Source: Cladochytrium replicatum
Taxonomy: Eukaryota; Chytridiomycota; Chytridiomycetes; Cladochytriales; Cladochytriaceae
Direction: 5' to 3'
Length of the DNA stretch: 64,000 bases
NCBI GenBank assembly: GCA_025526935.1
Contig: JAHLKD010000091.1
Span: forward strand, 124,001 to 188,000
Every line of letters starts with the position of its first letter. Within the stretch, counting starts at the first letter, position 1. The notes beneath the pieces were generated by a model, which worked only from the letters and a program-made list of their open reading frames with translations, was not told the DNA's origin and ran no database searches. Positions 2,141 to 48,036 of the stretch are shown in pieces. Made by a program: the position numbers and the translations under genes.

Positions 2141-3283
2141 CTAAACAGCATAAGCGGTCTTGCCGTGCTGAGAAATGATGCAGATGTGGTCAAGATCACG
2201 GAAATGCTCATTATAGTCCAACTACAGTACAAAAGAGAAATCATCAGCCATCACAACCAATACATGAAGAAGACCACAACGTACCGCATATCTGTTCAAG
2301 CCCAGGAAATTTTACCATTAAACTCTTCATTAGTAAAGTTTCAGGTGATATGTAGTGCCTCTTACCCAACGACAAAGTTGTCCGGAATTGCAAAGCCGAC
2401 GTAGTCCGGAACATATTTGTTGCTCCTTTAATTGCAGTTCGATTATCGTACGGGTTCCCTCACCATAAGAAGCAATTACGTACCTCGAGGTCTTCTTGAG
2501 CAGAAGTGATACGACTCGGATAGAGGCAGGCTCGTACTGCTTTAGCCTTTGGATCAGGTTCACCATTGTTGTGCCAGTGTCAATGATATCTTCGATTATC
2601 AACAGGTCCTTGCCCTACGCCCATCTTTAAGTGACTCTGTAATGTTCTAGGTACGGCGAGCCTGTGAAATACCTTGAACGTTTTCAGATCCTCCTCAGAG
2701 AGTGAAATCGTCACAGTTCCGGTTGAGTTTTCATTCTCGTAGCTCTTCACTTTGATGAACTCAAAACTCAGAGGGACTTGGGAAAGTCAGTGTTCGATAA
2801 TCTACACTGCCATTGATTTGAGTGCTCACTATTGACTCCGTGCTTGTTCTTAAGTTTCTTGAGGTACGAAATCAAGTCTGCAAAGAATACATGCGCACCC
2901 TAAGGCCCAAATCACGAATAAACGAAGCGGTGAGCAAAATTTGCGTATCTCATTACCTTGAGAACGCAACATGCAACCACAGGGTTCTCCGTTTCCGCAG
3001 CAATCTCCTGCGCAAGCTTCTCCACCCTATTTACAACAAACCAGCCCAAAATCCGATCAGCAACTTGAATAAAAAATTCCATTTCTGTGCAACGTGCCTA
3101 TCGAGAATGAAGCCATGAGGGATCAGCACCTTATCGACGTCGTGTTGGTAGTGGGTTGGGATCGAGAAGTGGTGGATGTCGTACCCCGCCGCATCTTCCA
3201 TATCTGAGACGAAAATGAGAACCGGCCCCCAACCCAAACGCACCGTCCTGGCCTATAAACTCACCAATCCATTTTGAGTTCAT
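2141..3283 (-). CDS. HPRT: Hypoxanthine-guanine phosphoribosyltransferase
   Basis: This enzyme salvages purines by converting hypoxanthine or guanine plus PRPP to IMP or GMP. I read nine exons on the minus strand: 3265-3283, 3098-3203, 2957-3026, 2830-2899, 2673-2776, 2484-2614, 2366-2425, 2285-2291 and 2141-2221. They total 648 nt and give 215 aa, close to the 218 aa of human HPRT. Visible landmarks are 'GYDIHHFSIP' near the N terminus, 'FIKVKSYE' in the flexible-loop region, the PRPP-binding motif 'IIEDIIDTGTTM', 'VPDYVGFAIPD' and the C-terminal 'LDYNEHFRDLDHICIIS'. Exon 8 is only 7 nt (ATATGCG). With its flanking introns removed the conserved 'VVGYALDY' is rebuilt exactly. The intron at 3027-3097 has a GC donor. 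Resemblance to animal HPRT is stronger than I would expect for a yeast-type HPT1. Confidence 0.93.
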
Positions 3284-6567: not shown

Positions 6568-7246
6568 ATGGAGGAGTCATTCACATTCGAGACGGTGAGA
6601 AGGCATCAAAATGGATATGAAAAACAACACTAAAACTAATGAATGGCACAGGAAACGGGAATAAGTGTCACGGAAGTCGTTGATCTTTCGAAGCCAACAC
6701 ATTATTCTCGGAGGAAAGCTGTGGCCAAATACGCTCCGTATTGGTCCGAGGCCTTAAATTGTCGCTTGGTGGACATGCAGTGATTATTGCAACTGGAAGC
6801 TGCCTCCTTGGCCAGAGGTCGGTGATTTGTCCTCCATATAAGCATACAAAGGATGAGTTTTCGATTCTTTGAAATGTTCGTCTGAACAACTATACGGGCT
6901 AATCTATGAAGATTGGAGGGCATTTACATATAGGTGAAGATTCGGTGGTCGAGGCCGCTCAAATAGGAAACTGCATCATGGTTGGAAAGAATTCTGTGAT
7001 ATTGTGAGTAGGGTTTCGATCGAATTTTGCGGACTTTTACCTAGGGTCGTTGTGCTGTCATCAAATATTGCGTAGTGGAACGGTTATTCCGCCAAACGCA
7101 GTTGTACCTTCATTCTCTGAAAATGGTGAAAATCCAGGTGAGTCATGTTCTTCAGAGTCGACAACCAATATCCTGATCTTCCATGATAACCAGAGCGGCT
7201 AGTCGATCAATTGCCTGAATGTGAACAGGAAATGTTTGACGCTTAA
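6568..7246 (+). pseudogene. DCTN5: Decayed dynactin subunit 5 (p25)-like gene
   Basis: The p25 subunit is a left-handed beta-helix at the pointed end of dynactin. Its fragments appear in the right order but in different frames: 'GNKC', then 'FRSQHIILGGK', then 'LSLGGHAVI' with 'SVICPPYKHTKDEF', then 'GEDSVVEAAQIGNCIMVGKN', then 'GTVIPPNAVVPSF', then 'LPECEQEMFD' before TAA. Frame changes fall near 6680, 6720 and 7073, and a few residues are missing at the last one. Splice-like GT-AG boundaries remain (for example 7003-7044 and 7138-7192). The C terminus is shorter than in animal p25. Frameshifts inside exons suggest a pseudogene rather than a mis-read gene, but clustered sequencing errors are possible. 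Confidence 0.65.
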
Positions 7247-12982: not shown

Positions 12983-14459
12983 ATGGTCGCACACAAGTAC
13001 AAAGTCGGTACGGTATATGATGAAATGAAAGCGAATTACACGGAATGTGTGCTGATCTGCTTGCCTGTTTGCAGCTGACATCACTCTCGCTGACTTCGGT
13101 CGCAAGGAGATCGAAATCGCTGAGAACGAGATGCCCGGTCTCATGCAGCTTCGTCAGAAGTACGGTCCCCAGAAGGTCCTTAAAGGTGCCCGCATTGCCG
13201 GCTGCCTCCACATGACCATCCAAACCGCCGTTCTCATCGAGACCCTCGTTGTCCTCGGAGCTGAGGTCACCTGGTCTTCTTGCAACATCTTCTCGACCCA
13301 GGACCACGCCGCAGCTGCTATCGCTGCCGCTGGTGTCCCCGTGTTCGCATGGAAGGGTGAGACGGACGAGGAGTACATCTGGTGCATTGAGCAGCAGCTC
13401 GCCGCGTTCAAGGATGGAAAGTCCCTGAACATGATCCTCGACGACGGTGGAGACTTGACTGGCATCGTCCATGAGAAGTACCCCCACTTGCTCGCTGGTA
13501 AGCTCCAGCTAGGAATTATTAATTGATTGAGACTGATTTTTTGATCTAGACATTCGTGGTGTTTCGGAGGAGACCACCACCGGTGTCCACGGTCTCTACA
13601 AGATGTTGAAGGACGGCAAGCTGAAGATCCCCGCCATCAACGTAAACGACTCCGTCACCAAGTCAAAGTTCGACAACTTGTACGGTTGCCGTGAGTCTCT
13701 CATTGACGGTATCAAGCGTGCTACCGATGTCATGATCGCCGGAAAGGTGTCTGTTGTCGCTGGTTACGGTGATGTCGGAAAGGGTTGCGCTTTCGCTCTC
13801 CGTGGCATGGGTTCCCGTGTCATTGTTACTGAGGTCGATCCCATCAACGCCCTCCAGGCTGCTATGGAGGGTTTCGAGGTCACCACCATGGAGGCCGCTG
13901 TCCCTGAGGCTAACATTTTCGTCACCACCACTGGTTGCCGTGACATTATCCGTGGCGAGCACTTCAGCAACATGAAGGACGACTCCATCGTGTGCAAGTG
14001 AGTTTTTGTAACCAAATTTTACTTTTTCAATATCTGAACGACCCTTTCAACAGCATTGGTCACTTCGATATTGAAGTCGACGTTGCATGGCTCAAGACCA
14101 ATGCCGTGAAGAAGGTCAACATCAAGCCTCAGGTGGACCGCTACACTCTCCCCAGCGGCCGCCGCGTCATCCTCCTCGCCGAAGGCCGTCTCGTCAACCT
14201 TGGATGCGCCACCGGTCACCCCAGCTTCGTCATGAGCAACTCGTTCTCCAACCAGGTTCTTGCCCAGATTGCCCTCTGGACCGACACAAAGGCGTACCCA
14301 ATTGGTGTCCACATGCTCCCCAAGAAGCTCGACGAGGAGGTCGCCGCTGCCCACCTCGACAAGCTCGGCGTTAAGCTCACCACCCTCACCCCCGTCCAGT
14401 CATCGTACCTCGGCGTCAACCCCGCTGGTCCCTTCAAGCCTGAGCACTACCGTTACTAA
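12983..14459 (+). CDS. SAH1/AHCY: S-adenosyl-L-homocysteine hydrolase
   Basis: This enzyme hydrolyses S-adenosylhomocysteine to adenosine and homocysteine, relieving product inhibition of methyltransferases. Four exons (12983-13007, 13075-13497, 13550-13997, 14054-14459) give 433 aa, the usual eukaryotic length. Visible landmarks are '[20 protein letters not shown]', '[16 protein letters not shown]' in the substrate domain, the NAD-binding Rossmann motif '[11 protein letters not shown]', 'GHFDIEVD', and the conserved C-terminal 'FKPEHYRY'. Codon use is strongly biased to C-ending codons compared with neighbours, as expected for a highly expressed gene. Exon 1 encodes only 8 residues, and a 67 nt intron follows. 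Confidence 0.97.
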
Positions 14460-15388: not shown

Positions 15389-17324
15389 ATGCCGGCTACC
15401 TCGATCACCAGCGTGCTCGCCGACGGGAAGAAGAAGCGCTTTCTCGTGCTTTCAATTCCGTTTTTGGGTTAGTATTCCGTCGTGATCGCATTCCATCTCC
15501 TGTGCTGAACATTCAACAACATTTAGGCCACTTGTAAGTTTGCAGTTCTGTAGGTTCACAAATTCTGACAACTACCGTGGATAAAGGAACCCTACCATCA
15601 TTTTCGCTCGCAGACTCGCGGCACATGGCCACGACGTCACCTTTGCCCTTCCTGATGGGTTCGCACCGCCGTACACCCACGGGACGTGGGAAGACATGAA
15701 GGTACTTCGCATTGTCGAATACGCATTTCCAAATTCTAAACTGTAAATTCGATAGATCAAGCATCTTAACACTGGAAAGTCGGGCCTTGATGAGGCAGGC
15801 ATGCGTCATGTTGAGTGGGAATGCACTGAGTACTGGGACAAGAATCCGCTTCGCGCATTCGATGTCCTCGCCAAGATGATTTCAGCTTTCCATCGCCAGA
15901 CTTCCGCCGCTTTGCTTAAAGGATTGCCTGACAGCAATGGGCCTCTGATTAACAAGGGCGAGTACGACATGGTGGTAAGGTTCTTGACGAACAATGTGAG
16001 AAGATGATAAGTAATGTGCTCAAAAACAAGTTTTAGATTGGAGAGTTCTTCAGTGTTGCTGCTTACGATGTCGCCGAGGCCATGGAAATTCCGCAAGCGG
16101 TCATTGTTCACTGCTATGTCGTCGCATTCCTGAGACACTATTTGCAAGTTGACCTCCCGTGGAACATTCCCATGGGCTTCGCAGAAGTCCCTGCGAAAAC
16201 CACGGTGTCAACCGCTCTCTCTAACTTCTTCTGGGTGGGTTTGGCAAAGTAGGTTCTAATACTAGTTTCAACGATCACTCTTCGCCAAATCTAACTATGA
16301 ATGTTTTCAGGTTTGTTCTGTGTCCAATTTTGGAGTCCCACAGCGATGCCGTGCGCAAGGAGGTCGGCGTCCTCAAGCGCTCTCTCTTCAAATCCATTTG
16401 GGAACCTCCGCGAGCTCCTCCGTTGGTGTTGATGCCTACAGCCATTGGCCCCGGTCTCGAGAACCCGCGCTCTCTTCCGCCCCACGTGCACTTCATGGGC
16501 CCCATCGTCCCCGCAGCGCAAGCGATGCCCTCGGAACTTGGCCACTGGCTCGACGGGTACAAAGCCGGCAAGACGCGCGACAGCGTCGCAGACGAACGCC
16601 CGATCGTGTACGTCTCAATGGGTACCGTCGTGGTCCTCGAGGAAGCGGACATCAAAAACTTCCTTGTCGGGATCGCGCACAAGCGGTTCCGCGTGCTCTG
16701 GAGTCTGCGTGTGCAGGGCCACGATGCCGCGAAGAGGTTCCACAAGATGACCGCCGAGTCGTTTGGAATGGAGGAGCTGGATGTGCGCATTGAGAGCTAT
16801 TTGCCTCAGGCGGCGGTGCTGGCTCACCCGAACGTGAAGCTGTTTGTTTCGCATGGAGGGTTCAACTCAACCAATGAGGCGTTGTTGAACGGGAAGCCGA
16901 TCGTGGGTGTGCCGTTCTTTGGTGATCAGGTAGCGTGACTGTTATCAACATCTTGTTTGGATAGCTCACTCGTCACGATCAGATGTACAACATTGGCCAA
17001 GCTGTGTACGGCGGCGCCTGTGTTAAGGTCTCTCGTCGAGACTCACAGATGCAGAACCAGCTCCGCGACGCGATTTTGGGTATGCTCGACAACTATGCGC
17101 AGTACAAGGCTGCCGCAATGCGTATGTCCGCGCTCTTGAAGCACGGAAACGGCGGTCTCGACTACGGTGTGAAAATGTGCGAGTTTGTGGCCGAGGTTGG
17201 AACGACCGAGCACTGGATCGTGCACCACAACACAGTTTCGACCATGACTGCCATTGGCCTGATCGGTTCTGTTGTCACTGCAGCTGCGGTTGGACTTGCT
17301 TACTGGATTAGAAAGAGGTTGTAA
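15389..17324 (+). CDS. UDP-glycosyltransferase (GT1) with C-terminal membrane anchor
   Basis: A GT1-family enzyme that would transfer a sugar from a UDP-sugar to a small lipophilic or sterol-like acceptor. Seven exons are read: 15389-15467, 15527-15533, 15587-15701, 15756-15974, 16037-16248, 16311-16929 and 16983-17324, giving 530 aa. Exon 2 is 7 nt (GCCACTT). Including it rebuilds the conserved N-terminal 'FLGHLNPTIIFARRL', where the His is the expected catalytic base. The donor-binding UGT signature is clear as 'LAHPNVKLFVSHGGFNSTNE' followed by 'GVPFFGDQ'. The last 30 residues contain a hydrophobic helix ending 'YWIRKRL', like the type I anchor of animal UGTs. I see no N-terminal signal peptide. 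The acceptor is unknown. Confidence 0.93.
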
Positions 17325-45093: not shown

Positions 45094-48036
45094 TTAAAAT
45101 GAAGCCAAATGAATCAAAATCGTCGGTCTGAATAGTGCAATCAACTGCCTCTTCGCATCCCTATACCCATCACCCCCATTCCCGCTACTTGAACTTCCAT
45201 CCGCCAGAGGCACGATCCCGCTACTCCCCAGACTTCCACTCGCACGCGGCACCATAATCGCCGACGAAACGGCTTCCAGAGTCGCCGGAGAGAGCAACGG
45301 AAGGCCTTGCGACGACAAATTTTTCGTGTAGGGGCCGCTTGTCGTTATGGGCAGCATTGAAGGGGCATCTTCCCTCCTAGTGTCTCCATCCGGATCGGGT
45401 TTCACAAATCCAAAGGGCCTCGCATCCGAACCGAAAGGTGACGCACCTCGTTGAGATGACAGATTAGCAACGTCATCTTCTCCATCACGTTTCCGCTTGC
45501 CAGCGTTCGAACCAGAAATGGGCGGAGTTGACGTCGCAGAAGTTGGGGGCTTCAGACCTGGGGGCGACGTAATCGCTACACCGTCCGGGAGCGACTGGTG
45601 ATCGCGGTGACAAGTGCAGTGAAACAGCTTAACGATTTTAAAATGTCAGAGAATGAATTTTCAAAAAAAGGAGGGGGAAGGTGAGGTTGTTTCGGGATAT
45701 TGGTAGAAGAGTAGGTTAATTCAGTAAAGCCCGTTTAGATTTTTTTGTTTTGTTTGTTTTAAAGTTATGACGATAGTTTGGCGAGGGCAAAAACAATATC
45801 CAAATTGACCGTGTCGGTTGCAAGTGAGCGACGAGCACGGAGTATGGAGAAGAAGCAGTCTCAGTCAATATACCACAGAAATACAAAGACCCCCGCCCAG
45901 ATTTACCTTATTGTTTACTCTGACAGCATTGCGGAACATCCACTCTTCCTGATCTTCATCGAAAAACGTCTTGAGCGTCTCATTGCAGATACCGCAAGTC
46001 GCATTTTGTAACCCATCCGTGGGAACATCGTGTGATTTCTCTTCAACTGGCTTTTCGGTGACCTTCTCTTTGTTTTCGAAGAAGGAGGTTGGGGCTGTTC
46101 AATCATAGTTAAGTACAATCAACTAACAAGGGAACCCGTTCTTACTTACCATGAGAGCTCTTGACAAGAAAGTCAGTCTCAAGTTCCGTAACCCACGCCT
46201 CCCCGGCAAGGTACCACTCCCTCGACATCGCCCTCTTGTCCTTCTCCTTAATCCTCTTGTTTTGCCTAAAATGCCAATCCAAGTGCTCCGAATTTCGTTC
46301 TTTGCCAGTATCTGTGCGGGCGTATCGTGAACCACATTGTGCGCACTGAATCTCGAGACTCTCGTACAAAAATGCCACCAATCCAGTCACCTTTTGGTTC
46401 ACACCTTGGTTTGTGAGCAAAATGCGTGGGAACGAGGAGGAAGGAACGGTAGGCATCCGCGGAGCAACTATTGGGTTCGGAGGCGTGGTGGTTACGGTAC
46501 CAGAAAGGAGGCCAAGGCCGATCAAACTGTCGAGGGATACCGGCGCATTGGTCCCGTATACTTGCGAAATGGGGGGGAGAATGCCGAACGCTCCTGCAGA
46601 GAAGGCGGGTTGGACCAGCGGGTTAACCAGTGGTGGAATCGAGACTGCTGCGGCAAACGGATTAGCGAGCGGTGGGATGGATAAAGGAACAGATAGGGGC
46701 GTTTCAGGTGTTGGGATCGGCAGAACAGGTGCATTTGGTGGTGAGATTTGCAGCAACTTCTCCTTGATCCGCTCGACTGTCAGAGCATCCAACGCAGTAC
46801 TCTGGACTACTTTGAGAAGCTTCCCCGACGATAAACAACGTAAATGAATGGAATACTTGGTTTGTGATTCCGCTTACCTGAGAACAAATTACTACTTGTT
46901 CGTTATCGACACGACTGAGAGGGTTAAGTGCAGCCATTTGCTGTTTCTGAAGTAGGAGCATCTGGATTTGCTGCTCAATCGCAATTGTCGCGGCGTTCAT
47001 GACCGGCACGACTGGAGGTAATGGACGGGTAACAACCAGTTCTGTTCCTATGTGCGGCCGAGGAGCTTCACGGTAATGGCTTTGATAGTCCGTCTGTGAT
47101 TAGAAACTCTTAATACCTGTTTTGTGGTTTTGGGCATATGTAAATTAAAAGCTTACTCGAGCTTGACTCCTTTCCGCGGGGTAATTACGGTCGTGCTGGG
47201 ATGAAAAGGGCTCTTTGTGCTCTCTGAAAAAGATCGATGTGTCATTAGCTTTGTGATATCGCAGAAATTGTATTCTTACACACATTGATGATTGTGGATA
47301 TTGTCCATTTCGTCTTGGCTGTTGTGACAACGTCGTGAGAATTTATGACTAAGAACATAGCAAAACCATACCACAAAGATTGGATTGACATGGATATGCT
47401 GTCCTACGGCTCCTCGTCCCAGGGAAAGTTGCTTTACCGCAGAGTCCAGCTGATGCAGAAGCGTAGGTGGGAAGAGCGGTCCGCCCGGGTGGTTCCACCA
47501 AGTCATGAGCACTTTCTGCAAACGTTGTTTTTCCTCATTCTCCATAGCGTCAAATGCGACCAGGTATGTTCGGATTAAATTTTGCGAGAACTGCTTAGTG
47601 TAAACAGCGCCCAAGTTTTTGCAAATAGAATCGAGCAGGTAGAATACCGGAAGTTTCTGTTTCGGCGGAGCCTAAATTTGGAGATGGGAAAGTTGTAAGT
47701 TTAAACTGAACCAAAAAATTATTGGATAACACAGAAGACGAGGGAAGCCCGAATAAGGTTGTCCCAAACCCATGTACAAAATTGAAGGACAAAGGGGTAA
47801 TGTTGGTTGAGTTCTCATTCCAAATTACAAAGATACAGAAATCAACTCAACCAGATTGTCCATACATTTCGAATTTGATCTTCTATCACTTGAACAATGA
47901 CCGAAGCGGCATGAGAGTTTTCTTGAGCAATGATGGTGAGATTTGTGATAATGGACCTGCAGTTGAACGTTAGATCTCCAACAGACGCTCGATACTCTTG
48001 TCGAAGGGTCTCGAGCTCAGCATCCGTTGGCGCCAT
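45094..48036 (-). CDS. PCF11: PCF11, pre-mRNA cleavage factor with CID
   Basis: PCF11 binds the RNA polymerase II C-terminal domain and bridges it to the mRNA 3'-end cleavage machinery; it also promotes termination. The start is at 48036 ('MAPTDAELETLRQEY'). The CID continues through exons to 'YLLDSICKNLGAVYTKQFSQ' and 'LQKVLMTWWNHPGGPLFP' near 47420-47600. The middle is Gln/Pro/Ile-rich. The C-terminal part holds a zinc finger 'IQCAQCGSRY' followed by 'HLDWHFRQNKRIKEKDKR' (46200-46360), a hallmark of PCF11, and a second Cys pair 'CGICNETLKTFFDED' near 45980. A Pro/Ser-rich tail ends at 45094. Several short introns are present; exact middle boundaries are not resolved. Confidence 0.9.

Follow-up and report, generated by a model that had tools for sequence, protein, structure and literature searches.

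A probable 7-nt microexon on the G-H-x-N-P motif of a UDP-glycosyltransferase gene in Cladochytrium replicatum

Introduction

Microexons with lengths of 1 and 6 nt have already been published for fungi (PMC12940212, PMC1184071). The 1-nt exon was reported for Fusarium CYP621A, where RNA reads and 20 orthologous genes document it; Figure 2 of that paper comprises 24 sequences (PMC12940212). The 6-bp exon is the shortest one described for the P450 genes of Phanerochaete chrysosporium, in which microexons of 2-10 aa are reported from nearly one-third of the family (PMC1184071). In Trichoderma virens, inclusion of a microexon in Xlr2 has been reported to depend on glucose, and the introduction of the same paper names fission yeast as a further fungus in which microexons were tested (PMC11121469). 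Outside the fungi, the human MPC1 gene carries a constitutive 4-bp microexon that is reported to need signals for exon definition located in the proximal introns (PMC9929638), and constitutively included short microexons have been reported from plants (PMC8831610). Within one literature collection and with that exact wording, no account of a UDP-glycosyltransferase with a micro-exon was found. A search on mushroom microexons and introns yielded nothing on fungi by title, a separate one on Coprinopsis led to a paper on NOD-like receptors, and the retrieved text on Rhizoctonia AG8 and Cryptococcus names microexons merely as an aligner setting.

The UDP-glycosyltransferase (UGT) gene of C. replicatum analysed here shares features with each of these systems. 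As in the P450 genes of the white rot basidiomycete P. chrysosporium, very short exons lie between small introns of a fungal gene (PMC1184071); unlike in that family, the gene encodes a GT1 UDP-glycosyltransferase and the exon falls on a conserved active-site motif. With Fusarium CYP621A it shares that a conserved motif is rebuilt solely by a tiny exon between introns, the omission of which breaks the frame (PMC12940212). However, the UGT exon measures 7 nt rather than 1 nt and is predicted here from genome sequence, whereas CYP621A is backed by orthologues and RNA reads. With Xlr2 it has in common that omission of a fungal microexon alters the protein made (PMC11121469), but glucose dependence is a feature of Xlr2 and the UGT microexon is probably constitutive. 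Likewise, a very short length that is not divisible by three and constitutive inclusion are features of MPC1 (PMC9929638) that the UGT exon would share, although the human exon depends on exon-definition signals and both introns next to the UGT microexon are shorter than 60 nt. The plant microexons are very short like the UGT exon, but belong to plant genes (PMC8831610). In combination, these comparisons place the UGT exon probably within a known kind, the always-included tiny exon.

Results and discussion

Structure of the UGT gene

The window, i.e. the whole stretch of 64,000 nt that was analysed, lies on contig C91. It contains a UGT gene of seven exons at positions 15389-17324 on the forward strand, encoding 530 aa in an open frame without internal stop. 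A gene at 12983-14459, upstream of UGT, was named by eye from its translation as S-adenosylhomocysteine hydrolase (SAHH). The Pfam model UDPGT (PF00201) matches residues 28-487 of the 530-aa product with a score of 100 bits (curated cut-off 19.5; E 2e-28). The features of the gene are as follows.

UGT exon 1, 15389..15467, + strand: 79 nt, from the start codon to the first base of the Gly27 codon; gene finder agrees
UGT intron 1, 15468..15526, + strand: 59 nt, GTTAGT...TTTAG
UGT exon 2 (microexon), 15527..15533, + strand: 7 nt, GCCACTT
UGT intron 2, 15534..15586, + strand: 53 nt, GTAAGT...AAAG (ends ATAAAG)
UGT exon 3, 15587..15701, + strand: 115 nt; gene finder agrees
UGT exon 4, 15756..15974, + strand: 219 nt; gene finder agrees
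UGT exon 5, 16037..16248, + strand: 212 nt; gene finder agrees
UGT exon 6, 16311..16929, + strand: 619 nt; C-terminal nucleotide-sugar half
UGT exon 7, 16983..17324, + strand: 342 nt; hydrophobic, membrane-anchor-like end (by eye), then stop; gene finder agrees

The microexon is a very short internal exon preceded by AG and followed by GT (TTTAG/GCCACTT/GTAAGT). A preliminary description had proposed that GCCACTT, between introns of 59 and 53 nt, restores FLGHLNP with the His codon entirely inside the microexon. Its coordinates proved exact, and the motif is rebuilt in an open frame: joining GCCACTT gives ...LSIPFLGHLNPTIIF... in the 530-aa protein. At the joins, G (15467) and GC together encode Gly27, CAC (15529-15531) encodes His28 wholly within the microexon, and TT with G (15587) encodes Leu29, followed by Asn-Pro. 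The best branch-point-like match in intron 1, CTGAA, is imperfect, and its A is located 19 nt from the exon. In intron 2 a branch-point-like CTGAC lies 19 nt from the exon, and the next AG downstream is that of the AAG at 15586.

The rebuilt N-terminus was compared with solved structures by searching with the first 82 residues alone, which listed 45 chains at E up to 1. In the five alignments shown of these 45, the sequence runs ungapped across both microexon joins: residues 14-61 on the UDP-glycosyltransferases 7vlb, 6kqw and 6kqx (GHVNPT; E 8e-6 to 1e-5), and residues 19-56 on the oleandomycin glycosyltransferase chains 7xx4 and 4m60 (GHVNPS; E 5e-4). His28 is aligned with the His of GHVNP in all five of these bacterial-type chains. 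When the full-length protein was used, the best-matching stretch fell in the C-terminal half for most of the 60 chains listed, and at UGT residues 14-62 for two YjiC rows among them. GH stands against GH in three of the five full-length alignments shown (8inh, 9khu and 9uce). The remaining two, 8i8z and 8ie4, carry GN and GV, respectively, opposite the UGT GH, and consequently His at this position is not universal in that set. The His of the N-terminal motif is the catalytic base in GT1 enzymes generally. On the basis of the alignments and this general property, His28 would be the catalytic base of the UGT.

Support for the microexon

For the route from the start codon into UGT exon 3, all GT-AG combinations of one or two introns, each ≥45 nt long, were enumerated. 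This gave 24 open paths for the 5' end of the gene, a single one of which produces GHLNP (as FLGHLNP). None of the other 23 gives GHxNP. The 119-nt gap between exons 1 and 3 was furthermore shuffled with its dinucleotide composition kept, and the GHxNP join was restored in 75 of 50,000 shuffled gaps. With the motif ignored, an in-frame exon of ≤10 nt was possible in 31% of them.

A small gene finder of our own picked the seven-exon UGT model with the microexon unprompted. Its training set consisted of 18 open stretches from the window; UGT exons 6 and 7 were two of these, and none of exons 1-5 was among them. Barring internal acceptors costs the finder 6.1 log units and leads to an N-terminally truncated UGT model; the advantage of the microexon model over the truncated form is modest. 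With either parameter set, trained or untrained, 2 of 2,000 shuffled gaps attained the score of the real gene model. The number of these gaps in which an exon of ≤10 nt was predicted was 429 with the trained and 29 with the untrained set. Ab initio prediction was rejected as sufficient proof of the microexon. Shuffled gaps often yield short exons too, and the strong evidence for the microexon comes more from the protein motif than from the ab initio score. The splice-site scores around the microexon are ordinary: relative to 142 predicted introns, the donors of the two introns rank at the 51st and 77th percentiles and the acceptors at the 56th and 30th.

The acceptor of intron 2 is AAG rather than CAG or TAG, a point absent from the preliminary description. 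AAG acceptors are also present in two of the eight introns of the HPRT gene model, the protein of which was aligned through both AAG joins with a solved enzyme (240.7 bits). The ab initio scans contain them in 16 of 142 introns (untrained) and 47 of 300 (trained). Because of the HPRT introns and these frequencies, AAG is no warning sign in this genome. The acceptor was considered as a disproof of the microexon, and this was rejected on account of its recurrence in the homology-fitting HPRT introns and in both scans.

Splicing of the microexon and alternative readings

Taken together, the 7-nt exon is very probably real and constitutively spliced, and the GT1-family UDP-glycosyltransferase gene that contains it is apparently functional. 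Two ordinary short introns of 59 and 53 nt, separated by 7 nt, lie around the conserved G-H-x-N-P motif. In the scheme that we infer for microexon splicing, for the order of intron removal and for constitutive inclusion, each could be recognised alone by intron definition, via its donor, its branch point and the first AG downstream. With short introns recognised individually, there would be no need for recognition of the microexon as a whole. The introns would be removed one after another, the seven bases then belonging to an exon of normal length. Sequential removal appears most likely because both splice sites of a 7-nt exon can hardly be occupied together.

If the gene had no microexon, the UGT would either begin at ATG 15696, inside exon 3, and be N-terminally truncated, or follow another path, e.g. 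from the donor GTTTTT at 15460 to the acceptor at 15586. Both alternatives are open, the 15460 to 15586 path is in frame, and the truncated model scores just 6.1 log units lower. The motif is nevertheless gone in both, as the 15460 to 15586 path lacks FLGHL and the truncated form also lacks the whole first strand. Moreover, RFLVLSIPFLG of exon 1 can be aligned to the N-terminal end of solved enzymes, the exon 1 donor is average-scoring, and GTTTTT is a poor fit to the donor consensus, which counts against a donor at 15460. The absence of a microexon is consequently regarded as very improbable. Hardly credible at all is a gene that uses the microexon with the acceptor CAG at 15613 in place of AAG at 15586, which gives an in-frame protein without NPTIIFARR. 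The frame of this form is open and its acceptor canonical, and the gene finder scores it at 83.7 compared to 87.8 for the AAG form; it loses, however, the NP of the motif together with some of the stretch aligned to the solved enzymes, and the CTGAC match is followed by the AG at 15586 first.

A different reading accepts the exon as real and makes its inclusion controlled, such that skipping yields a frameshifted, decay-prone mRNA and the enzyme level follows splicing. The preliminary description had pointed out that skipping both shifts the frame and removes the His. This arithmetic is correct: the product ends after 63 residues and, being followed by a stop at that length, would be non-functional. 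The proposal built on it, that the microexon serves as an on/off switch, found no support, the site scores being unremarkable and no sign of skipping in use having been seen. Besides the frameshift, a switch has a fungal precedent in the glucose-dependent microexon of T. virens Xlr2 (PMC11121469), and alternative splicing has been proposed for the microexon-bearing Phanerochaete P450 genes (PMC1184071). Against this stand the average splice-site scores, the commonness of AAG acceptors in this genome, and the fact that the UGT microexon is in no way set apart from a microexon in HPRT (see below). HPRT is a housekeeping gene and, similarly arranged as it is, not an obvious switch candidate. In addition, short microexons of the constitutive type are known from plants (PMC8831610) and, at 4 bp, from human MPC1 (PMC9929638). 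A regulated switch is on balance unlikely. We give still less weight to its extended form, in which a regulated gate acts on the catalytic-His microexon, skipped transcripts are destroyed, and the gate is one element of a broader programme in a lineage with many exons of <16 nt. Were skipping regulated, the UGT would join Xlr2, a regulated microexon of a filamentous fungus in print (PMC11121469).

With the exon read as real and constitutively spliced, the UGT represents a clean case of a conserved active-site residue on an exon that is easily missed by automatic annotation. Missing the microexon here would lead to a truncated or frame-broken UGT model.

Other very short exons

The preliminary description had also reported a second, independent 7-nt exon in the window, and this is borne out for ATATGCG in HPRT by homology as well as by shuffling: the join VVGYALDYNE is identical in the solved enzyme 4kn6 and was restored in 6 of 50,000 shuffles. 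Exons of 14 and 15 nt were found in two further kinds of gene.

HPRT microexon ATATGCG, 2285..2291, - strand: 7 nt; supplies YA of VVGYALDYNE; flanking introns of 74 and 63 nt
Coactosin short exons, L022:7085-7098 and 7170-7184, L018:427-440 and 514-528, - strand: two duplicated copies
Protein kinase short exon, L023:6858-6872, - strand: 15 nt, EYCDG segment, inside the Pkinase match

The coactosin gene, which is located outside the window, has consecutive exons of 15 and 14 nt, and all eight exon sizes are equal in its duplicate on contig C83. Its identity is given by a Cofilin_ADF match (E 8.8e-30), and the short-exon part aligns ungapped with the solved coactosin 1tmw. The 15-nt kinase exon was predicted with trained parameters only. 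Homology-supported exons of ≤15 nt are found in these four kinds of gene over 84 kb of C91 and 59 kb of C83, two of them measuring 7 nt. The UGT, HPRT and coactosin cases suggest that gene models built for this genome should be inspected for missed tiny exons.

Among 285 internal exons predicted by the trained finder, 8 have ≤10 nt and 16 have ≤15 nt; homology backs only the UGT, HPRT and kinase exons and the two coactosin pairs among those 16. The untrained finder predicted 110 internal exons, 5 of ≤10 nt and 8 of ≤15 nt, including the UGT and HPRT microexons and one coactosin exon, but no kinase exon. When the interiors of 332 predicted introns were shuffled, the trained finder still predicted 12 exons of ≤10 nt, as compared to 8 in the real sequence, and the trained short-exon count can consequently not be taken as a genome rate. 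As to the suggestion that this lineage commonly splices microexons, very short exons do recur in this genome, in UGT, HPRT, coactosin and the kinase, but an ab initio excess is not seen (8 vs 12 in shuffled sequence).

A GC donor was observed in another HPRT intron, 3027-3097 on the - strand (AG/GCACGT...AATAG).

Copies and duplicated regions

A search of the genome (50.5 Mb, 198 contigs) with the UGT returned eight matches, five of them in the UGT itself and three on contig C83. The C83 copy (L010:3976-4870) is a frame-broken remnant that adjoins a duplicated SAHH gene. No other close UGT copy turned up in the genome, and within the remnant no convincing counterpart of exon 1 or of the microexon could be located. 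Five further PF00201 matches, on contigs C33, C17, C72, C119 and C150, are distant, the first 1.9 kb of each of these loci having been read in three-frame translation, and a scan for a UGT relative in viral contigs found none.

The surroundings of the gene are duplicated as well. C91:104001-188000 (window position 1 being C91:124001) is collinear, up to window position 47482, with C83:27491-80000 (L010, L017-L021). The collinearity extends over tens of kb; identity ranges from 70.6 to 96.6% among the pieces and is about 72-88% in the long ones. On C83 the UGT is broken and a second HPRT was not found, while SAHH and, by eye, acetyltransferase-like and NUDIX-like genes are kept. The C91/C83 pair looks like the product of an ancient duplication, large-scale or of the whole genome, or of a hybrid origin, accompanied by gene loss; two subgenomes have been described in a hybrid Rhizoctonia (PMC7884421).
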